From: Muricauda sp. MAR_2010_75
Lineage (GTDB): Bacteria > Bacteroidota > Bacteroidia > Flavobacteriales > Flavobacteriaceae
Length of the DNA: 64,000 nucleotides
Direction: 5' to 3'
Assembly: GCF_000745185.1 (NCBI RefSeq)
Contig: NZ_JQNJ01000001.1
Location: 1,821,501 to 1,885,500 of the forward strand
Positions 11,417 to 24,591 of this stretch are shown piece after piece (positions within the stretch are counted from its first letter, which is position 1; every line of letters starts with the position of its first letter). The notes beneath the pieces are model-generated. The model worked only from the letters and a program-made list of their open reading frames with translations. It was not told where the DNA came from and did no database searches. The position numbers were made by a program, and so were the translations under genes.

Positions 11417-11827
11417 ATGAATTCAAAAAACATTTTCCGAATTGTATTGGCGATTATTGGCGGCGAAATTGCCCTGATCATCTTCGCGACCATAGCCCAA
11501 GAAGTTCTTTTTGATGGAATCAGCTATAATTCTTCGCCCATTAGCGAGATTGCACTTGGCGGATTGGCGACCTTCATTGCGGCAATTTTGGCCGGCATTG
11601 TTGCCAGATTGATCATCCGTAATAAGATCAATACCGTACCATGGGGCATTACCGTGCTTGTTACGGTGGAAATGACCTACCTTATTTTAACCGGCAAAAC
11701 AGGTGACCCCATCTGGTTTGATATATTGGCAGGTGCTTCACTGATTATTGGGATTTGGCTTGGCTTCAATTATCCCAGGTTTTTGTCCAAAAGCAGGGTA
11801 ACATCCGTTAAAGAACATTCCCATTAA
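11417..11827 (+). CDS. Small four-helix membrane protein
   Basis: 136 residues with four hydrophobic segments (about 5-30, 43-67, 76-94, 103-120) and little else; no catalytic motif is visible. It follows the ankyrin-like gene by 5 bases as the last gene of the operon. Its stop codon overlaps the convergent DUF5916 gene by 4 bases. No family recognised with confidence. Confidence 0.65.
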   Translation: MNSKNIFRIVLAIIGGEIALIIFATIAQEVLFDGISYNSSPISEIALGGLATFIAAILAGIVARLIIRNKINTVPWGITVLVTVEMTYLILTGKTGDPIWFDILAGASLIIGIWLGFNYPRFLSKSRVTSVKEHSH

Positions 11828-14016
11828 AGCCAGTAGGTGAATTTTAACACTATACCCCGGTTCTTGATTGCCAAGCTTTCTGGGAAATAGTTTTCGGTAT
11901 AGACCACAAAAAGATCGGACATGGGCAAAAAGCGCCACTGAAACCGACTATTGATATTAATGTTGTCCTGTTGGGTGTTGTATTGAAGGAAAGTGGTCCA
12001 GAACATGGTATTTGAAAACGATATTTCCGAGGTAAGCCCAAAAAGGTGCAATTGTGCACTGTCCAGATTTGAAGGCAACCGTACATCATTAAAATTATAA
12101 CGCAAGATAAAATTGCCCCAAGGCTGGAAACGAATATTGGTCTCCGCCTCAATGTACAATCTGTTGCCACTATAAAAGCTCCCATATTCTGCACCCAAGC
12201 TTCCAGAAAATTGTTTCCTTGGATCCAGACGACCCCAAAAACCGACCCTATCGTATGAATAGTAGCCTTTCGAAAAAGGAATGTTACCCACAATAAAGGA
12301 ATCAAAAGGCAAATCGTTCTTCTCGTTCACATAACTCAACTCCAATGCATTCTGATTCTTAAAATCAAAAAAGTAATAGAAGCCCGCTATTGATGAGTTC
12401 AGTGATCCATCCATGTTCAAAAAGGCCCGAGTGGAAACGCGTGGCCCGTGAAGGTTGTATTTTGAAGTCTTATGTCCCGGGAGGAAATTATATACGAAAA
12501 GATGCGACAATTGATAATATCCCAGCTTCACAAATACCTCGTTCTCAGCATCAAAGTTGTTCAGTCTTGGCACAAAGCCCACATCTGTGATGTAATTTTC
12601 ACCTACCCTGTCCCCAGACAACCGGGTCAATATATTTTTATTGTTGAACCGAACGGTGGCAGTATAGTAATATTCCTCCTCGAACTCGCCGGGATTGAAA
12701 GATTTGTGCATTCCCAAATTGGCACTCCATTTTCCCGTTTCATCCAAAAAATTATACTCCAATGCCAAAACTCTATTATAAGCAGCCTGTGTAGAGTCTG
12801 AATTTTGAGTGGTTCGCTGTCGATTCACCAAAAGTGCATCCAAGGTTGATCTTTTGCCAAAACGCTGTGAAAAAGAAGAAACAAAGTAATTCTGGGCATT
12901 TGCATTGTCCGTTTTTCCCGTTTGCACATCCATTACCCCCACCCGAAGCTTATTGGATAGGTTCCCGGATATTCGCGCTCCGTATTGAATGGGCGTGGGC
13001 TGTCCATTGGCAAGTCCGATTCTTCTGGAAAAGAAAGGGGTGATGTCTTCCTTTCCAAAAGAGGTGAACAGATCACTGTTCTCTAGAAAAAAGCCTCTTC
13101 TTTCCGGAAAGAATAGCGCAAAGCGGGTAAGGTTGGTTATTTGTTGATCCACATCCACAGTGGAAAAATCAGGATTAAGGGTCAGGTCTAAATTCAAGGA
13201 TGAAGAAATGGCCAACTTTGCATCCAAACCCACTTCAAAACTGTACTGCTCCGTACCTTGCAACTCATGGTCCCTAGCAATTCCTCCAGCCATATAGGGC
13301 AAAAGGTTAATGTTTCCTTTTTTGGCCTTAGGCGGATTTGAATCCCATAACAGCTCTCCGGTATATCCCAGATTAATCGTATTTAAATTCAGGGGCACCC
13401 TGTTCCACGAAGAGTAGTAGTTGTTCTTCATGTCATTTCTCACAAAGTTCAAACCCCAGACCCTGTTGGAAGTATCGTACCTCAATGTTCTAAAGGGTAT
13501 GGCCATTTCAACATACCAAACATTATTGCCCAAAGAAATCTCAGAGAACCATTTATTGTCCCAATTTTCATTGATATATGATTCATTGCCCTCCACACTG
13601 ATCAATCCTTCAAATTGAGCTCCACCCGCATTTACGCCAAAGAAAAAACCATTGGTCCTTTGATTGAAGGGGTCTAGAACAATGCCAATGCCATCACTGC
13701 CAAAATGTTCATCATCTTGGTCCCGTTTTAACGTTCGAATTATATGTTGATTGTTCTTTTCATGGCATGTGATGCCTACATATAAAAACACATCATCATA
13801 GGCCATGCGAACCTCGGTTTGCGAATCAGCTTCACCAGTGTCCTTTGGCCATTGATTGAGAAAAGGCGTAGTTTTTTCCAAATTTTGCCAAACAGACTCA
13901 TCCAAAGCACCATCGATTGTAATTTTGGAGTCGATTCTTTTTAGGTTGAACTGCTGTTGTCCATTTAGGTGCAATGATGAAATAAGCAACAAAATGTATA
14001 CTAACCTGAAGGTCAT
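11824..14016 (-). CDS. DUF5916 outer-membrane protein with N-terminal CBM9-like domain (copy 2)
   Basis: 730 residues, signal peptide 1-19 (LHLNGQQ). CBM9-like domain at about 22-215 (KITIDGALDESVWQNLEK, GIGIVLDPFNQRTNGFFFGV). The DUF5916 core NPDFSTVDVDQQITNLTRF, FFPERRGFFLENSDLF and PFFSRRIGL is shared almost word for word with the gene at 4683-6830, as are the closing strands (FLQYNTQQDN, WRFLPMSDLFVVYTENY). It ends in the barrel-type tail F-T-Y-W-L. The two are clear paralogs but too diverged to be a recent duplication. Transcribed alone on the minus strand and facing the SMP-30-like operon. Confidence 0.85.
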   Translation of the reverse strand: MTFRLVYILLLISSLHLNGQQQFNLKRIDSKITIDGALDESVWQNLEKTTPFLNQWPKDTGEADSQTEVRMAYDDVFLYVGITCHEKNNQHIIRTLKRDQDDEHFGSDGIGIVLDPFNQRTNGFFFGVNAGGAQFEGLISVEGNESYINENWDNKWFSEISLGNNVWYVEMAIPFRTLRYDTSNRVWGLNFVRNDMKNNYYSSWNRVPLNLNTINLGYTGELLWDSNPPKAKKGNINLLPYMAGGIARDHELQGTEQYSFEVGLDAKLAISSSLNLDLTLNPDFSTVDVDQQITNLTRFALFFPERRGFFLENSDLFTSFGKEDITPFFSRRIGLANGQPTPIQYGARISGNLSNKLRVGVMDVQTGKTDNANAQNYFVSSFSQRFGKRSTLDALLVNRQRTTQNSDSTQAAYNRVLALEYNFLDETGKWSANLGMHKSFNPGEFEEEYYYTATVRFNNKNILTRLSGDRVGENYITDVGFVPRLNNFDAENEVFVKLGYYQLSHLFVYNFLPGHKTSKYNLHGPRVSTRAFLNMDGSLNSSIAGFYYFFDFKNQNALELSYVNEKNDLPFDSFIVGNIPFSKGYYSYDRVGFWGRLDPRKQFSGSLGAEYGSFYSGNRLYIEAETNIRFQPWGNFILRYNFNDVRLPSNLDSAQLHLFGLTSEISFSNTMFWTTFLQYNTQQDNININSRFQWRFLPMSDLFVVYTENYFPESLAIKNRGIVLKFTYWL

Positions 14017-14424
14017 GAAAAGACTTTTATCATTAAGACCTTGAAGATGAATACATTTAACAATATAATTTTGGTTTTTACACGAACCAACTTGTTTTTT
14101 ATGTGTTCTTAAGCTTTTGGTACATTATAAAATATTTGGTGGCCCATGGCCGCCTGTGACTGGAGGTATTTTTGATGTGACCAAAGTCAAATCAATAATA
14201 AAAGTTCACAAATCGTCAACATTTTGAAATCAAAAAGTGGTAGTCCCAGTAAAACTGAGGCTCGGAGAAAAAAGTTCGGTTCTTGCAGGAGCTACTATAC
14301 TTCACTTGGAGAACACCTTCATCAAGACTGATGAACAAATAACAATTTCTGATGTTATTTGAATATATTTACTACAAAGGATTTTCCCTTTGTTGTGAAG
14401 AACCCATCCTAAAACGTGATTGCT
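14017..14424. other. Divergent intergenic region upstream of the dikinase-like gene
   Basis: About 400 bases between divergent genes. I found no open frame with coding character and no good TTG-N17-TAnnTTTG promoter on either strand. It is moderately AT-rich with short imperfect inverted pieces (for example around 14335-14362, TGATGAACAAAT versus TGATGTTATTTG). It should hold both promoters, but nothing can be placed with confidence. Confidence 0.3.
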
Positions 14425-17334
14425 ATGGAACGTTTTTGCAAGATTGTTTTATGCTTTGTTTTGGCGCTGCCATATCCAATTCAGGCTCAAAAAGTCGAGA
14501 CAAATGACATTGCCGCACTAATCCAGAAATATAAAAATGACATTCGAGGCCCCTATAGGGATATCCGTTGGTTCTGTGCCGATGGAAGTATTCGCGCTCC
14601 CAAGGACCCCTGTCCCGATGAGATTGGCCCCGGGGTTCAGCATGCCCGTTATAAAGAGGAGGTCGTGGCTTTGGGGAAATCCAATCACATATATCTGGGC
14701 CAGATTTTGGCATATACTGATCAAGAACCCTTTTGGGATGCCGAAAATGATCACTCCCGACTGAAACAGTACCAACTTGACAAATACCTGAAGAGCGTAG
14801 ACAACGGTTGGATCAATCAAAAAGGGCAATTTTACCGGGGAGCCATCCAAGCGGAAGACGAGGAAGCATGGGGCATCGAATTTTACAAATGGCTCTTGGC
14901 GAAAAATGAGGTTTTGAAGAATGAGTATTTTCTGGTGCGTCAATCCCTTAAGGATATTCCCCACAATGGGGATGACAATGTGGCCCAACAGATGCGGAGC
15001 GAATCCAAAGTGATATCTGATCTGTACCTGCCTTTTATGGATTTACGAGTGAAGATCCACAGCCAACCGGAAGAAAGCGATGTTCAAAAAGTGGTGCGGT
15101 TCAAGCAAGCGAACAGCACTAAGTTGACTGCGGATATTTCCAAAAAATTGGATGAGTTGGTGGCCACCATGAAGGAATTTCATAAGCCTGTGGACATTTC
15201 TGCGCTTCCCAAAATGGCTCCCTTGACTAAAGGAACTGATTTAGGGAAAAAAATTGAAAGTTTTGCTTCCAATTCAGCATTAATGGGCAGTCCAAAATTA
15301 TTATTGGAACAAGCTTCGCAGCTCTTGTTCGATATCCGTGCCGGTATTTTGGAGGAGAAAAGACCTATGGCAAGGCTCCAGTTGCTGGATGTTTCCCTGA
15401 AATTGGAAGAAATTGTATTCAAAAGTTCGCCCGACTATCAAGCTGAAACCTTGAAGGAACTCCTGCATAAAATCTGTTACTTAGGCATGGCCGTTACCGG
15501 TTCGGGCTACTTGGAGCAATGGGAATGGGACCAACTGTCAAGTGATCTTACCAATTATGAAGCTCAGGAGCGGTCACTGGGTGAATTAACCGAAATATTA
15601 AACCGGGCAAGGTCTGCGGTGGAGTGGAGTGCCGCCATGGTCAAGGCCAATTACGATGGTATCGTAAAGGAATATGTTGCTTTTGAACCGCTCACTGCTG
15701 GTTTTGTAGATGATAAGATTCGTGGGTCGGTGGCACTACATTTGGGGCAAAGTGTGGGGGAGCTGGGGAATCTCATTTCCACAGAATCCCAATTGACGAA
15801 CAAAGTGATGGACTTACAGAACCAAAGTACGATACGAGGATTAAACCCTGGATATGCGTTTGGAGAATTAGTGGTTGTGGGCGGCAGTTCGGATGACATA
15901 GAAGTTTCATCGGACAAAATCTATGTGTTTCAACGTCCTCCATCCGATTTAAAACCCGTTGCCGGTATTGCTACTGTAGCCGAAGGAAATATGGTTTCCC
16001 ATGTGCAGCTGTTGGCCCGAAACTTGGGAATTCCCAATGCAGCATTATCTGACCAAAATCTACAAGACCTTCAAAAGTACGATGGCACAAGGGTGTTTTA
16101 TGCGGTTTCCAAAAAGGGAAACATCATCCTTAAACCCGAAAACCAAATGACTTCGGAGGAATTGACGCTTTTCGCCAAAAAGGAACGTAAAGAAGAACGC
16201 ATTGAGGTGCCAATTGCGCAGATACGGTTGGATGAAAACAAGGTTTTGGATATGCGAACCGTGGTCGCGGATGATTCCGGGAAATTGTGTGGTCCCAAAG
16301 CTGCAAATTTGGGTCAGCTCAAAAAAATGTTCCCGGAGAATGTGGTGGAAGGTTTGGTGATCCCCTTCGGAATTTTCAGGACACACATGGACCAAAACAT
16401 GCCTGGTCAAGAGGGTTCGTACTGGCAGTTTTTGACTAAAATGTTCCAAGAGGCCAATCGCATGTTGGCTTCGGGCATATCCGAAAAAGAGGTGGAAAAC
16501 TATCAATTACGCCAATTGGAAACCTTACGGGAAGCCATTAAAAAAATGCCCTTGCAAGACACTTTTATAACGCAATTGGAAGAAGGTTTCAAAGAAGTTT
16601 TGGGTTCCGAACTGGGAAATGTTCCCGTTTTCCTTCGCAGTGATACTAACATGGAGGATCTAAAGGATTTCACGGGTGCAGGATTGAACCTTACCATTTT
16701 CAATTCGGTGGATAAAACCAAAATCTTGGAAGGCATCAAAGACGTTTGGGCCTCTCCGTATACCGAACGAAGTTTTAAATGGCGTCAAAAATATTTATTG
16801 AACCCGGAGAATGTGTTTCCGTCCATTTTGGTGATTCCGAGTGTGGATGTGGACTATTCTGGCGTTTTGATTACCAAGGGAATCAGTTCGGGAACGGAGA
16901 ACGACCTTACCGTGGCATTTAGCCGAGGTGCCGGTGGCGCGGTTGATGGTCAGGCTGCGGAACAATACCTCATTAAAGATGAAGGAGGCTATACCTTGTT
17001 GGCACCTGCCCGTGAACGTTTCTACAACAGTCTGCCCAAAACGGGAGGCACGGAGAAGAAGAAGGCCACTTTTCAAGACCGTGTGCTTAACGAACGGAAC
17101 ATCAATGAAATTCGGGATTTGGCCCATACCATTCGAGAGCGGGTTCCCAAAGAAACCGATTCGGATTACCAAGGGGCTTACGATGTGGAGTTGGGCTTTA
17201 GGGACAATAAGCTGTGGTTGTTCCAGATTAGGCCATTTGTGGAGAATAAAAGGGCATTGGGTTCCACGTATTTGGAATCCATCACCCCAAAGATTGACCT
17301 TGCCAGACGTATTTCACTATCTAAAAAATTGTAG
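14425..17334 (+). CDS. Secreted PEP synthase/glucan-water-dikinase-like ATP-dependent phosphotransferase
   Basis: 969 residues from ATG 14425 (a GTG lies three codons upstream). Signal peptide 1-21 ends YPIQAQ. Residues about 25-430 are a mostly helical region I do not recognise. A PEP-utilising mobile (phosphohistidine) domain follows, with probable phosphohistidine H526 in NMVSHVQLLARNLGIPNA. After it comes a PPDK_N-type ATP-grasp domain: GPKAANLGQL (K near 625), FLRSDTNMEDLKDFTGAGL, and the closing DVELGFRDNKLWLFQIRPF. This order, mobile domain before ATP-binding domain, is that of alpha-glucan water dikinases rather than PEP synthase. No PEP/pyruvate-binding barrel is present. An exported ATP user is unusual. 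The stop is directly followed by the ATG of the next gene. Confidence 0.8.
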   Translation: MERFCKIVLCFVLALPYPIQAQKVETNDIAALIQKYKNDIRGPYRDIRWFCADGSIRAPKDPCPDEIGPGVQHARYKEEVVALGKSNHIYLGQILAYTDQEPFWDAENDHSRLKQYQLDKYLKSVDNGWINQKGQFYRGAIQAEDEEAWGIEFYKWLLAKNEVLKNEYFLVRQSLKDIPHNGDDNVAQQMRSESKVISDLYLPFMDLRVKIHSQPEESDVQKVVRFKQANSTKLTADISKKLDELVATMKEFHKPVDISALPKMAPLTKGTDLGKKIESFASNSALMGSPKLLLEQASQLLFDIRAGILEEKRPMARLQLLDVSLKLEEIVFKSSPDYQAETLKELLHKICYLGMAVTGSGYLEQWEWDQLSSDLTNYEAQERSLGELTEILNRARSAVEWSAAMVKANYDGIVKEYVAFEPLTAGFVDDKIRGSVALHLGQSVGELGNLISTESQLTNKVMDLQNQSTIRGLNPGYAFGELVVVGGSSDDIEVSSDKIYVFQRPPSDLKPVAGIATVAEGNMVSHVQLLARNLGIPNAALSDQNLQDLQKYDGTRVFYAVSKKGNIILKPENQMTSEELTLFAKKERKEERIEVPIAQIRLDENKVLDMRTVVADDSGKLCGPKAANLGQLKKMFPENVVEGLVIPFGIFRTHMDQNMPGQEGSYWQFLTKMFQEANRMLASGISEKEVENYQLRQLETLREAIKKMPLQDTFITQLEEGFKEVLGSELGNVPVFLRSDTNMEDLKDFTGAGLNLTIFNSVDKTKILEGIKDVWASPYTERSFKWRQKYLLNPENVFPSILVIPSVDVDYSGVLITKGISSGTENDLTVAFSRGAGGAVDGQAAEQYLIKDEGGYTLLAPARERFYNSLPKTGGTEKKKATFQDRVLNERNINEIRDLAHTIRERVPKETDSDYQGAYDVELGFRDNKLWLFQIRPFVENKRALGSTYLESITPKIDLARRISLSKKL

Positions 17335-18600
17335 ATGAGAAAGATACTTGCTTTAGGAATTTTAGGTTTGATGGGATTAGGATTCACTGAATTTGTGGAA
17401 TACCCCATCGATGGGTATGAACGCACCGGAATAAAGCGACTCAAACGGCTGGAAATGATCAAGAATGGGGAGTTGAAGGAAACCTCTTCTCCACTTCCCG
17501 AAGGTGCCAAAAAATCGTGGGAGGATATCCAATTGAACTTACTCACTAGAAAAGACGATAGCGTGGGAAGCTTTTTTACGGTGGATGAATCCTTTCAAAA
17601 GGAAATTGGAACACTGTTTCGAGGTTTGGACAAAAGTTATTCCCTGACCATTTTGGATATTTCGGATCCCGATAGCGTCCGGTATGCCGAACGGAACAAG
17701 ACCTTGGGGTATCAGCCGGGTAGTGTGGGTAAATTAGCCGTGCTTGTGGCACTTTTTGAACAATTGGCCAAAATTTACCCCGATTCCTTTGAGCTTCGCA
17801 CTCAATTGCTGAAAAACAAAGTGGTAAGAGCTGGGGTGTGGGGCTTGACTGATGAGCATACCATTCCTATTTTCAATGTGGAGAAGAACACTTTGGTCAA
17901 ACGCCAGGTGATTGCCAGTGATGTATTCAGTTTGTATGAATGGGCGGACCACATGCTTTCGGTGAGCAACAACGGAGCGGCCAGTGTCGTTTGGCGGGAG
18001 GCGCTTTTGATGACTGCGTTCGGGGTGAAATATCCTGAACTGACCGAAGAGGAGGCCACAGCCTATTTCAAGGAAACCCCAAAAAAGGAGTTGACCGATT
18101 TGGCCAATGATGTGGTCAATCTTCCACTTCGTGATTTGGGAATCACTGCTGATGAATGGAGGTTGGGCAGTTTTTTCACGAATGGGGCCAACACCTACGT
18201 GGGAGACAAGGGAGGTAGCATTGGCACGCCTTACGGACTCATGAAGTTTTTGGTGCAGTTGGAGCAGGGCAAAGTAATCGATGAGGCGAGTAGTCTGGAG
18301 ATGAAACGCTTGATGTACATGACTGATCGGCGGATTCGTTACGCGCAATCCCCTGCATTGAAAGAGGCAGCCGTTTATTTTAAATCGGGGAGCCTATATA
18401 AATGTGACCGCAGCAAAGGGGAGGAATGCGGAAAGTATATGGGCAATGTGCAAAACTTTATGAACTCCGTAATCATTGTAGAGCATCCTGATAATTGCAG
18501 GTATATGGTGGTACTGATGACCAATGTGCTACGGAAAAATTCAGCTTCGGACCATATGTATTTGGCCTCAGCCATCGACAAAATCGTTAGGAAGGGCTGA
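17335..18600 (+). CDS. Exported class A beta-lactamase-like serine hydrolase
   Basis: 421 residues with a hydrophobic N-terminus (1-20). The class A-type transpeptidase/beta-lactamase motifs are in order: S130-V-G-K133 (nucleophile S130), S211-N-N213 in place of SDN, and K350-S-G352 in FKSGSLYKC. A clear omega-loop ExxLN glutamate is not visible, so efficient beta-lactam hydrolysis is doubtful; an amidase, esterase or peptidoglycan-related role is more likely. Two cysteines in KCDRSKGEECGKY may form a disulfide. Starts immediately after the dikinase-like gene's stop with no spacer, so the two are one operon. The 3' end overlaps the convergent transporter gene by 14 bases. Confidence 0.8.
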   Translation: MRKILALGILGLMGLGFTEFVEYPIDGYERTGIKRLKRLEMIKNGELKETSSPLPEGAKKSWEDIQLNLLTRKDDSVGSFFTVDESFQKEIGTLFRGLDKSYSLTILDISDPDSVRYAERNKTLGYQPGSVGKLAVLVALFEQLAKIYPDSFELRTQLLKNKVVRAGVWGLTDEHTIPIFNVEKNTLVKRQVIASDVFSLYEWADHMLSVSNNGAASVVWREALLMTAFGVKYPELTEEEATAYFKETPKKELTDLANDVVNLPLRDLGITADEWRLGSFFTNGANTYVGDKGGSIGTPYGLMKFLVQLEQGKVIDEASSLEMKRLMYMTDRRIRYAQSPALKEAAVYFKSGSLYKCDRSKGEECGKYMGNVQNFMNSVIIVEHPDNCRYMVVLMTNVLRKNSASDHMYLASAIDKIVRKG

Positions 18601-21388
18601 TTTCTTCGAATGCTTTAAGGGCAAAATCTTTGATTTTTTGGTTTTCATCGGTTGTAAACCGTTCCAAGAGGGGTTTAAAGCGACTGTCTTTTTGTTTTCC
18701 GATAAGGTATATTACGGCCAGTTTTAGGTTTATATCGGGTACATTTAGCAATTGCTCAAAACACTCCATCTCGCTCGGGATGCTATGTTTGATTTTTTGG
18801 ATGGCTTCTTCCGAAGAAAAATCCATGGTGGCTTCCTCAATAATCGGTAGTAACTTTTGTTTGAGGTTGCCCGTAAGCAGGTTGTCCAAAAACTCAATGG
18901 CTTTGTTACGCGATTCTTCCTTTGGGCTCAAAAGCCCCAAATAGGCATTTTGCACATCTTCCTGCACATATTTTAATCCCAAGAGTTTAAATATCCGCTC
19001 CAAGCCTGAATCCAGTCTTCGTTCCAATAACTCCAATAAGGACGAGCGGGCATCCCTTTCCTCAGCGTCAATGTTTGCTCCCGATTTTTTCCGGTTTCGG
19101 TAGGAGATAATAATCTGGGTATGCATGGCCGAAAGCGTTTGGTGGTACAATTTGCACTCCTCAAAAATCTTAGACACTATTTTAAACCGATTGAACCGTA
19201 AAGTAGGTCGTTCTTTTCGGATATCGCTAAGGGCCCGGACCACTTCCAATCGAATACTAAGGTCAACATCATCAAAAAGCTGAAACAGGGAGTGGACAGC
19301 TTCTTTGGACATAAAGGACTTTATCACTAAGGGTACAAAACGGCAAATTTCAAGATTTATAGTCCGATTTTTTACATGTGACACCAAAATGGGCAGAATT
19401 CCAGGGCCATAGTTGTTCAGCGCCTCAATTACCAAAGGGCGCATTGGTTTATGGGGAAGTAAGTGCAATAAGTTGTTGATGAACATGGGCCGCATGCTGA
19501 TACCGGCGGCGATGATGGCAGCTTCTTTTAGACTGCCATCTTTACTGCCAAGGTTCTCCATGATCACGGGATAGTGCTGTGGATATCCTGCGGCACCTAT
19601 GGTTTTCAACACAAGTGAATTTATGGGAATCTCTTTTTGCGCCAACCGCTTTTCCAGTCTTTCGGCCAAACCATGCCTGGATTTTAAGGCCATGTTTCCG
19701 GCACTTTCCCGTGCCAAACAATAAAGGGCCGTATCCCGAATCAGTGGGCTATCCGCGTCCAGAAACTGGTCAAAAACATATTCCCCATGTTGGTCCGCGT
19801 GAAGCAACAAATACTCAAAAGTGGCCAAGGTCAATTCTTCATCTTCATACCCCAAAAGCTCATTAATGTTTACGACCATGGTGGCACTGTTCAGAAAATA
19901 GAGGTTACGCATGGCTGCAGCTTTTACCTTTAGGGAGGGATGTTGCAATAATCTCAGAACATCATCAGAAAACCTCCTGTCATTGATTTCCATCAATTTG
20001 TTCAGCATAAAAAGGAGCTGCTCTTCGCTTCCACCTGAAAAAACGTTCTTCATTCCCTCGACCACGGATACTTTCTTCACCTTTGCGGATGAAGCAATGG
20101 CTGTTTTGGCCGCAGCATTTTCCAAATTTTTTTTGAAGGTGGCGTAGTATTCTTTGCGCAAAACCCCTACAAAAAATATCCAAACTAGAACCGAACCAAT
20201 AATCAATAGGGTGATGCTCGTGGTCCCAAGATCAAGTCCATTGACAAAGAAGATGAGCAGTAAGCCTGCAACACCGGTGGCAATGCTGTCCACCACCACA
20301 TCGATAAAGGATTTTGTCCGGTTTTTCAGCTCGAAGGGCAATGGGAGAGCCAGTAATTCCGAAGCGCTTTTATTGATGGATTGTTTCAGCACCCCATCCA
20401 TGGCCTTGATGGCCACAATTGCAGAAAGTTCGGGCAGTATCAAGAAAAAAACAGCGCCAAAAAGAATGCCCAAAGGCAATAAAATCAAGGAAAAACCAAC
20501 CCCCCAGATACCCACTATGCGATGGGTGAGGAAAAGCTGCACCGCAAGCGACAATAAATTGAAGGTGGAGAACCAAAAAGCGAGAAATGAGGTAAGTTCC
20601 TCTGGATCTTCAATGGATTTGGCAGCAAAATCACTGAAGAGGTAATCCACCAATTTGGCCACCAAGACCCCAACGGCCACGGTCAAGGCCATATAGGTAA
20701 GGTGACGGGATTTTTTGATCAATTTATAGGGGTGGCCATCCGTCAATGCAATTCGTTTTTTCTGTTTAAACTCATCCAATTTGTTCACCCGAAGCTTCCA
20801 AATAAACCTGAGTAACGGAAAACAGCCAAATAACAAGAGAGCGGCAATAAAAATCATGGCCTCATTTCCAAGAAGTGGTGCAAAAATGGAGGTGAGGTAA
20901 CCTCCAAAAATTCCACCTAGAATAGCTCCTGAACCTATAAAACCGAAAAGTCGTTTTGCATCCCTGACATTGAAAACCAAATTGGCCAAGACCCAAAATT
21001 GGGAGGCAGACAATACGGCGTAAATTGCCACCCAGATGTAGAAAAAGAAGAGCAAATAAATATTCATCAGCCCCAATTTCAAGAGACCTCCCAAAACCAA
21101 TAGGACCGCAATTGAGGTTGTCAATGTGGTTTTTATAATATGATTCAGCCCAAACTTGGTCAGAACTCGTGTGTAGAACAGAGAGCTTAAGACAGCGGTG
21201 ACCGCCACCAGCACATAGGCCACGGAAAGTTTTTCGGCACCTAGTTCAGAAAGAAAAAGTGCATTGATGGTCGGCTTTATGATCAACAGCACCGAGATTA
21301 CCAGAAAGATGTAACAAAACATAAAAAGGGAAATTTTGTATTCCCCTTTTCTAATGTCAAAAAAATTGTTTGCTAATCTGTAGATCAT
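18587..21388 (-). CDS. ATP/ADP translocase (TLC/NTT)-like transporter fused to HEAT repeats
   Basis: 933 residues. The N-terminal half (about 20-420) has around 12 membrane segments and resembles the TLC/NTT-type nucleotide transporters and related MFS proteins (COG3202-like): GEYKISLFMFCYIFLVIS, LIIKPTINALFLSELGAEKL, GFIGSGAILGGIFGGYLTS, DGVLKQSINKSASELLALPL. The C-terminal half (about 440-933) is an array of HEAT-type helical pairs (LLQHPSLKVKAAAMRNLYFL, DEELTLATFEYLLLHADQHG, DVDLSIRLEVVRALSDIRKE). Substrate cannot be read from sequence; nucleotide transport is a family-based inference. Second gene after a class A-type serine hydrolase (23-base gap) and convergent with the dikinase operon. 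Confidence 0.8.
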   Translation of the reverse strand: MIYRLANNFFDIRKGEYKISLFMFCYIFLVISVLLIIKPTINALFLSELGAEKLSVAYVLVAVTAVLSSLFYTRVLTKFGLNHIIKTTLTTSIAVLLVLGGLLKLGLMNIYLLFFFYIWVAIYAVLSASQFWVLANLVFNVRDAKRLFGFIGSGAILGGIFGGYLTSIFAPLLGNEAMIFIAALLLFGCFPLLRFIWKLRVNKLDEFKQKKRIALTDGHPYKLIKKSRHLTYMALTVAVGVLVAKLVDYLFSDFAAKSIEDPEELTSFLAFWFSTFNLLSLAVQLFLTHRIVGIWGVGFSLILLPLGILFGAVFFLILPELSAIVAIKAMDGVLKQSINKSASELLALPLPFELKNRTKSFIDVVVDSIATGVAGLLLIFFVNGLDLGTTSITLLIIGSVLVWIFFVGVLRKEYYATFKKNLENAAAKTAIASSAKVKKVSVVEGMKNVFSGGSEEQLLFMLNKLMEINDRRFSDDVLRLLQHPSLKVKAAAMRNLYFLNSATMVVNINELLGYEDEELTLATFEYLLLHADQHGEYVFDQFLDADSPLIRDTALYCLARESAGNMALKSRHGLAERLEKRLAQKEIPINSLVLKTIGAAGYPQHYPVIMENLGSKDGSLKEAAIIAAGISMRPMFINNLLHLLPHKPMRPLVIEALNNYGPGILPILVSHVKNRTINLEICRFVPLVIKSFMSKEAVHSLFQLFDDVDLSIRLEVVRALSDIRKERPTLRFNRFKIVSKIFEECKLYHQTLSAMHTQIIISYRNRKKSGANIDAEERDARSSLLELLERRLDSGLERIFKLLGLKYVQEDVQNAYLGLLSPKEESRNKAIEFLDNLLTGNLKQKLLPIIEEATMDFSSEEAIQKIKHSIPSEMECFEQLLNVPDINLKLAVIYLIGKQKDSRFKPLLERFTTDENQKIKDFALKAFEEISPS

Positions 21389-21411
21389 TGGTCCGAGATG
21401 CTATCCAATGT

Positions 21412-22314
21412 CTAAATTTCGGTTTTTTTCAAAACTTTTTCCACTGGTTTTACCAGATTTCGGATGATTTGCTCCCCATCGGGATCATCAATAAGGGCCA
21501 CTAAAATGTATCTACGATTTGAATCTCTTCCCCAAACCAAAATGGAGTCGGAGTGGTAGGTTTTCCAAGACCCAGATTTCCGAAAAAGGCGTGCGGTTGG
21601 TGCTATTTTTTCCAGTGTATTCACAAATTTGTGATGAAGCTCCGGATTTTCCATGATGTTCAACATCTGCTTGGATCTTTTTTCATTGACAAGCTTTCCA
21701 TTGGCGAGCAAGTAATAAAAGCGGCACACCTGGGTAACCGAAGCAGCATGACTGAGCTGTTTCAACGGTTCCCTATTGGTATCGCCTCCACCACCATAAC
21801 GTTTTCCTACCCATAAGCCCCCACCATTGCCCTCATCATAAAAAGCATATTTGGGGTCTGTCATCACCGATTCAATTTTGGCGTAGCCAATTCGGTCAAT
21901 CATACGGGTTGAAGCGGCATTGTCCGATTTACTGATCATCAGCCGCATATCTTTTTTTACTTCAGAAGTTTCTATAAGTTCGCCCTTTTCAATGGCATCC
22001 ATCGCAGAAAGTAGAATGGCAATTTTTGGGAGACTGGCAGCGTACATCATATGGTTGCCATTGATTCGCGCAAACTTGACTTTTTCAGGATTGCTCAAAT
22101 CCACAATGCCAATGGCCATTTTCTTTTGGGAAATTAAATCAGACCAGATTTGATTGCTAAGAATCTCTTCCTCAAGATTGGCTTGGAGGGAAGTATCCAC
22201 CAATTTTGTCAGTGGCTTAATTTTTTCGTTTGCAAGGGTCAATGGCAGGGTTTGTTGCCCTTGACTGGACAAGCAAAAGGCGAAAACGAGAATGGTAAGT
22301 AGGATATTCCTCAT
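21412..22314 (-). CDS. Exported class A beta-lactamase-like serine hydrolase (second copy)
   Basis: 300 residues, signal peptide 1-20 (LSSQGQQ). Motifs: S94-L-P-K97, S130-D131-N132 in ISKSDNAAS, and K246-S-G248 in FRKSGSW, all at class A-like spacing. A glycine-rich stretch lies where the omega loop would be (EGNGGGLWVGKRYGGGGDT), and the usual ExxLN is missing, so it is probably not a true beta-lactamase. It is related to, but shorter than, the gene at 17335-18600. First gene of the minus-strand operon that continues into the translocase-HEAT gene; a strong Bacteroidetes-type promoter sits just upstream. Confidence 0.82.
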   Translation of the reverse strand: MRNILLTILVFAFCLSSQGQQTLPLTLANEKIKPLTKLVDTSLQANLEEEILSNQIWSDLISQKKMAIGIVDLSNPEKVKFARINGNHMMYAASLPKIAILLSAMDAIEKGELIETSEVKKDMRLMISKSDNAASTRMIDRIGYAKIESVMTDPKYAFYDEGNGGGLWVGKRYGGGGDTNREPLKQLSHAASVTQVCRFYYLLANGKLVNEKRSKQMLNIMENPELHHKFVNTLEKIAPTARLFRKSGSWKTYHSDSILVWGRDSNRRYILVALIDDPDGEQIIRNLVKPVEKVLKKTEI

Positions 22315-24276: not shown

Positions 24277-24591
24277 ATGAATAACCTCAGACGTGTAATT
24301 GTCGATTATAAAAAATTGACCCCCGAAGTGCTAAAGTTGCTGGTGGATAAATATCCCGATGGCTATGGCGATAATGATGTCATCAACTTTAGAAACCTAA
24401 GAGGTGAGTTGATTGAAGCTGTTGAGGTTTCTACAGACGACACCAAATACCTGGTAAAGATCAGCTCCAAGTTGGAGCACACCATGGCCAATTTTGACGA
24501 TGATGACGACGATGATGACCTTGATACTGAGGATTTGGGCAAACTCCCAGATGACGATGATGAGGACTTTTCAGACTCGGAAGAGGAATAA
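24277..24591 (+). CDS. Small protein with Asp/Glu-rich tail
   Basis: 104 residues. The first 75 form a mixed alpha/beta segment (RVIVDYKKLTPEVLKLLVDKYPDGYGDNDVINF) that I take as a conserved flavobacterial protein of unknown function, sometimes labelled DNA primase in databases without support. The tail from about residue 73 is nearly all acidic (FDDDDDDDDLDTEDLG, DDDDEDFSDSEEE). A possible promoter is TTG 24221-24223, 18 bases, TAATTTTA 24242-24249. A role as an acidic nucleic-acid mimic or partner-binding tail is a guess. Confidence 0.7.
   Translation: MNNLRRVIVDYKKLTPEVLKLLVDKYPDGYGDNDVINFRNLRGELIEAVEVSTDDTKYLVKISSKLEHTMANFDDDDDDDDLDTEDLGKLPDDDDEDFSDSEEE

Follow-up and report, generated by a model that had tools for sequence, protein, structure and literature searches.

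The 64,000-nucleotide stretch analyzed here, hereafter the window (positions 1,821,501–1,885,500 of contig NZ_JQNJ01000001.1, Muricauda sp. MAR_2010_75), carries a compact set of four genes that encode a dikinase (DIK), two serine hydrolases of the SxxK type (HYA and HYB), and a transporter related to ATP/ADP translocases that ends in HEAT repeats (NTT, or NTT-HEAT). The genome is a single contig of 4.42 Mb, close to Flagellimonas/Muricauda of the Flavobacteriaceae, its DIK being 90% identical to that of F. amoyensis. We show by computation that DIK, HYA, and HYB are strictly co-inherited and that NTT-HEAT is coupled to them. The predicted export of DIK, HYA, and HYB is well supported by their sequences, and we see about an even chance that the four proteins form one envelope pathway, in which DIK would phosphorylate a hydroxyl substrate using nucleotide moved by NTT and the hydrolases would process this substrate.

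Within the window's family, each genus was represented by one genome, 149 in all. DIK had a match in 42 of them (E ≤ 1e-3), and 28 contain full-length orthologs (51–100% identity). HYA comes directly after DIK, with the same orientation, in all 27 other family regions (28/28 with the window), and the complete order DIK>HYA>NTT<HYB< (arrowheads give the direction of each gene) is found in 22 of these 27. Among the 22, a TerC gene lies between HYA and NTT in four, and other open reading frames (ORFs) intervene in loci L042 and L052; the five regions without the full order are those of genomes G075 (about 7 kb inserted), G108, G143, G144, and G116 (contig ends). Of 353 named loci, the best 80 were compared: all 80 have DIK>HYA>, and 66 have the full order. 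Within the DNA covered, the remainder show DIK>HYA> only (10), no HYB (3), or no NTT (1), in some cases because the contig ends. The original prediction had staked itself on the neighborhood being kept in related genomes, and the arrangement is indeed conserved far beyond chance. Because any one flanking family is shared by at most 7 of 40 regions, window included (most flanking ORFs have no annotation), the four genes make up a discrete cassette.

The presence of the four genes is also correlated. NTT was found (E ≤ 1e-10) in 32 of the 149 family genomes: the 28 with DIK, where it is full-length and scores above 1100 bits, and four others, with three weak matches in frames of 436–441 amino acids and one contig-edge piece in G146. 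HYB was found in 29, that is, the 28 genomes with DIK (the G138 match crosses one TAA) and the draft genome G146, in which HYB stands beside the NTT piece at a contig end and DIK was not found. In a phylum-wide sample of 345 genomes from 155 genera, DIK, HYA, and HYB were each detected in the identical 11 genomes (10/155 genera, six families; Fisher P 6e-21 for the trio, ignoring kinship), HYA and HYB occurring only alongside DIK at E ≤ 1e-10, and NTT in 35, all 11 trio genomes included; in this sample two first-look candidates were scored per genome for DIK and NTT, up to five for HYA, and six for HYB, and distant extra copies may escape. The strict core is composed of DIK, HYA, and HYB, whereas NTT belongs to a wider family and is a frequent partner. 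Genes that have become unlinked are retained: all four are kept and all dispersed in G321; in G143, HYB (3.58 Mb) is far from its three partners (0.29 Mb) on the same contig; NTT is 2.0 Mb away on the same contig in G108; and the two operons (DIK + HYA, NTT + HYB) are kept on separate contigs in G144. We rejected a chance neighborhood on the grounds of conserved order, co-inheritance, and retention of unlinked genes. Wider relatives of DIK were found in Salinibacter, Aliifodinibius, Lewinellaceae, Saprospiraceae, Calditrichota, KSB1, Poribacteria, and Gemmatimonadota.

NTT has a history of its own. Across the 78 loci that encode all four proteins (some contigs are counted twice, and 72 NTT rows are distinct), pairwise identities correlate with those of DIK at 0.94 for HYA, 0.86 for HYB, and 0.73 for NTT, and NTT identity is bimodal at a given DIK identity. 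An NTT type found at 31 loci (four being second copies of a contig), defined from NTT identity clusters before the DIK, HYA, and HYB trees existed, forms a clade on the NTT tree. On the DIK tree the same type needs six changes, and a single clade is rejected (approximately unbiased test, p-AU 5.6e-8), as it is on the HYB (4.2e-6) and HYA (1.7e-4) trees, all four being quick trees with some long branches. NTT alone was thus exchanged repeatedly while its position and orientation were kept, the alternative being ancestral tandem NTTs with differential loss; repeated exchange or loss within the slot suggests that the slot needs an NTT-HEAT.

DIK (969 amino acids; 14425..17334, + strand, with an alternative GTG start at 14416) is a phosphohistidine dikinase predicted to be exported. 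It begins with a predicted signal peptide (approximately 14425..14490, +; based on the sequence and a rule-of-thumb test on relatives), followed by an N-terminal helical domain, the presumed substrate domain (residues ∼25–455; 14497..15789, +), by the swivel or phosphohistidine domain (∼460–575; 15802..16149, +) with His526 at 16000–16002, and by the ATP-grasp domain (∼603–942; 16231..17250, +), recognized by fold searches and alignment; its C-terminal end matches PPDK_N in Pfam (96 bits). H526 and seven ATP-grasp residues (K625, R738, D745, D920, E922, Q934, and R936) are invariant in all 106 homologs aligned (41–90% identity), so that the catalytic histidine and ATP-grasp residues that mark the phosphohistidine dikinase superfamily are present throughout. 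At the named loci, 66 of 70 DIKs pass a rule of thumb for signal peptides, as do 219 of the 239 DIKs taken from the database; the hydrophobic stretch is present in 228 of these 239. The only cysteines kept across DIK are C51 and C63 in the N-terminal domain and C622 (84/106); C51 and C63 are both present in 100 homologs, both absent from 6, and never single, the pattern expected of a disulfide. Both lines of evidence agree with the earlier proposal that the dikinase is noncytoplasmic. Whole-model fold searches returned only the ATP-grasp and swivel domains, the N-terminal domain, which may yet have a known fold, being barely sampled by this kind of search. Exported dikinase-like proteins with other domains were found elsewhere in Bacteroidota, and the export of dikinases may be more widespread. 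Other swivel + ATP-grasp proteins occur in the window's family at L029 (937–2823; 628 amino acids) and L030 (1–3336, minus strand; >1112 amino acids, with a long C-terminal part); they have signal-peptide-like starts and, by eye, keep the dikinase motifs.

In alpha-glucan water dikinase (GWD), a swivel is followed by a C-terminal ATP-grasp domain, and DIK shows the same order; a weak match to GWD1_pHisD was obtained in 6 of 20 cases at E ≤ 1 (best 0.011), and the histidine motifs of the two are similar. DIK differs from GWD in that it has no CBM45/CBM20 starch-binding match in Pfam, is bacterial and, as predicted, exported, and has a different N-terminal domain. With PEP synthase and PPDK it has the ATP-grasp and phosphohistidine domains in common, but the domain order is different and no PEP-utilizers_C domain was found; the NCBIfam PEPS models cover mainly its ATP-grasp part, far below cut-off. 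We know of no export signal or partner hydrolases for the small-molecule dikinases rifampin phosphotransferase (RPH), HpeHI, and phenylphosphate synthase. The rifampin phosphotransferase equivalog aligns with the ATP-grasp part only (51 bits, for a cut-off of 999 bits), and this enzyme has the ATP-grasp domain first, then a RIF domain, and the swivel at its C terminus (PMC12167813 for the swivel), an order that is reversed in DIK. Given the missing domains, the reversed order, and the scores below cut-off, membership of DIK in GWD, PEPS, or RPH was rejected.

HYA (421 amino acids; 17335..18600, +; S130-x-x-K133, S211-N-N213, K350-S-G) abuts DIK (junction TAGATG) and overlaps the end of NTT tail to tail by 14 bases (18587..18600, both strands), an overlap that is frequent in relatives (32 of the 51 named loci in which all three ORFs were placed). 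HYB (300 amino acids; 21412..22314, −; S94-x-x-K97, S130-x-N132, K246-S-G) is separated from NTT by a 23-base spacer (21389..21411, −). The ORFs thus bear out the four genes with the positions, strands, and spacing first described. Both hydrolases match Beta-lactamase2 (PF13354) above cut-off (33 and 70 vs. 22 bits), as expected from their initial assignment to one family, and the SxxK, SxN, and KSG motifs are kept in 17/17 HYA and 15/15 HYB. They share these invariant motifs with the class A-like SxxK enzymes of PF13354 and differ from them in forming a DIK-linked pair of diverged paralogs. At the named loci, the signal-peptide rule is passed by 79 of 79 HYA and 59 of 65 HYB. A cysteine pair, C357/C365, is present in 16 of 17 HYA, L057 having neither residue. 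Class A β-lactamases have Glu166 as general base in the omega loop; among the HYB sequences, the residue at E182 is always acidic (E in 12 and D in 3 of 15). Searches of solved structures with the HYA and HYB profiles gave no matches. Right after the signal peptide, residues 23–41 of HYA (window ∼17401–17457) contain YPIDG, in 17/17, followed by an xTGIKRL-like stretch; this part, near the mature start, is a possible docking segment.

NTT-HEAT (933 amino acids; ORF at 18587..21388, −) comprises a 12-helix transporter domain (residues 1–430; 20099..21388, −) and C-terminal HEAT repeats (∼440–933; 18587..20071, −). Its Pfam matches are HEAT_2, above cut-off, and MFS_1, below it. The TLC profile (PF03219) does not match the window's own transporter, and a genome-wide TLC search was also blank, its control likewise matching nothing; TLC does match 16 of 18 NTT relatives at E ≤ 1 (best 1.4e-14). 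Searching with a profile built on its membrane part retrieves the NTT1 proteins of Arabidopsis (E 5e-15) and Chlamydia (E 5e-12), with no other protein up to E 0.01, and the three best matches of the predicted fold are ATP/ADP translocases (9j3m, 9j3l, and 9j3n), followed by other MFS carriers. NTT therefore belongs to the NTT family through its relatives and its fold, and it has the architecture of the NTT-HEAT fusions, which are described by Major et al. (2017; PMC5381601) as broadly conserved and of unknown function; what sets the present case apart is the link to a dikinase and a pair of SxxK hydrolases, all predicted to be exported. The twelve transmembrane helices and the charge of loop 6–7, which carries ten basic residues, place the HEAT domain probably in the cytoplasm. 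A contact between HEAT and DIK was rejected as unlikely because the former is predicted to be cytoplasmic and the latter exported. Tandem NTT genes, one long and one short, were observed in the genus of G341 (L202, 7671–11837, in G337, and L109); no trio was detected in G337.

A fifth gene, TerC, is found at the DIK operon in six distinct genomes (126 sources scanned, including the window, which is negative). It lies just after HYA in L032/L138 (12202–13152 in L032), L034/L159 (5930–6868 in L034), L035/L143, L036 (6400–7341), and L147, and about 190 bases before DIK in L103 (5697–6659), from another family; L180 and L189, with TerC some kilobases off on the opposite strand, were excluded from the count. 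The window's genome has two TerC genes, both away from the module. In Bacillus, TerC proteins are reported to load Mn into exported enzymes (PMC10550928), the closest known system being TerC/MeeF-MeeY exoenzyme metalation; in the present module TerC is an accessory.

Around the cassette, the gene upstream of DIK (11824–14016, −) encodes CBM9-like and DUF5916 domains and stands beside DIK in 0 of 39 other regions compared, and a small protein encoded at 24277–24591 (+) has long aspartate/glutamate runs at its end. A scan for promoters and terminators was uninformative, terminators being at the shuffled level and promoters numbering 21 vs. 15.9 (standard deviation 3.4).

In the pathway that we propose, NTT would carry ATP out across the inner membrane and return the spent AMP/ADP together with phosphate. 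In the periplasm, DIK charged with Mn or Mg would move a phosphate of ATP onto its swivel His526 and then pass it to a hydroxyl of the substrate held on its N-terminal domain, with release of AMP and phosphate. HYA and HYB, acting as diverged SxxK acyl-enzymes, would ready the acceptor or process the phosphorylated product. The most likely substrate would be a glycan, either of the envelope or extracellular, or some other hydroxylated compound. Related dikinases use the swivel histidine and yield AMP (PMC12167813), and NTT1 is presented as a counter-exchanger involving ATP, ADP, and phosphate (PMC3306366); since a dikinase yields AMP and phosphate, the two reactions could close a cycle. The more specific proposal, that in free-living bacteria exported ATP powers an exported, cotranslocationally metalated dikinase that, with a dedicated pair of SxxK enzymes, acts on a substrate in the envelope or outside the cell, is tentative and rather less likely to be right than wrong. 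A search of open-licence papers in PubMed Central (PMC) returned no description of such a four-gene system, in line with the original prediction, whose author knew of none, and we rate it as new in kind, with every part from a known superfamily.

Several observations weigh against this pathway, in which the nucleotide export by NTT and the DIK substrate are what we infer. The periplasm is normally not expected to contain nucleotide, and the choice of substrate leans on what related dikinases are known to phosphorylate. A single loss event may account for the six DIKs that lack the cysteine pair. The predicted NTT structure is of middling confidence (pTM 0.46), and E385 of Arabidopsis NTT1 (AtNTT1), presumably important for ATP/ADP exchange, corresponds to D248, a conservative change. 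Mutation of K155, E245, or K527 impairs AtNTT1 (PMC3306366); E245 is replaced by A121 and K527 by T371 in the window's NTT, K155 not being reliably aligned, so two of the three positions that could be mapped have lost the charged residue of AtNTT1. The cargo of NTT may accordingly differ from ATP/ADP; of the joint nucleotide-powered module first suggested, the parts, their predicted export, and the functional linkage stand, whereas outward ATP transport does not gain support from these residues. In the order of G341, finally, HYA is present in 5 of 80 genomes: G499 has HYA>NTT<HYB< at a contig edge, with an NTT 41% identical to the window's, and in the other four HYA and HYB are direct neighbors, NTT not lying between them (HYA>HYB< in G505 and G489, DIK>HYA>HYB< in G341 and G325). 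The sole NTT match of G325 is short (441 amino acids) and unlinked, and the NTT-HEAT of G341 is on another contig and only 29% identical to that of the window, suggesting that the trio may work without this transporter.

The same parts could serve for scavenging, in which NTT would import nucleotide, DIK would use outside ATP or run backwards, and the hydrolases would free bound material, the resource being nucleotides and phosphorylated compounds of sea water. The named hosts fall mostly in what we take to be marine or saline genera, which we counted in favor of this explanation. Characterized parasite NTTs import nucleotides (PMC5381601). The forward dikinase residue set is complete, however, the flanks of most regions have no further family in common, most flanking ORFs lacking annotation, and it is not obvious what two SxxK enzymes would do in nucleotide uptake, so that we consider scavenging unlikely. 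Detoxification or resistance, with DIK phosphorylating a toxin like rifampin phosphotransferase and the β-lactamase-like proteins opening acyl or lactam bonds, is improbable too: the mean column identity of the DIK, HYA, and HYB alignments (67–69%) suggests one fixed substrate, and the best fold matches of NTT are nucleotide carriers, with drug exporters behind, the DIK substrate domain being barely sampled in the fold searches.

It has also to be considered that DIK may serve as a sensor or scaffold: it would bind extracytoplasmic nucleotide and make no product, the hydrolases doing the work. This would fit with ATP not being expected in the periplasm and with the exported dikinase-like proteins that carry other domains elsewhere in Bacteroidota, but the checked catalytic residues are invariant across the 106 homologs, unlike those of pseudo-enzymes, and we give the idea little credence. 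That the four genes are neighbors by history, with no joint function, is strongly disfavored and hardly credible: some flanking genes are common to close relatives (up to 7/40 regions), whereas the co-occurrence across genera, the retention when unlinked, the variable flanks, and the exchange of NTT within its slot all speak against it.

The periplasm is taught to be ATP-free, and a conserved exported dikinase with intact catalytic residues, linked to a transporter of the nucleotide type, would run counter to that view. The system would also give the NTT-HEAT proteins their first testable context, and it would unite in one pathway two otherwise unassigned enzymes of the penicillin-recognizing fold, joined in some genomes by the metalation protein TerC.

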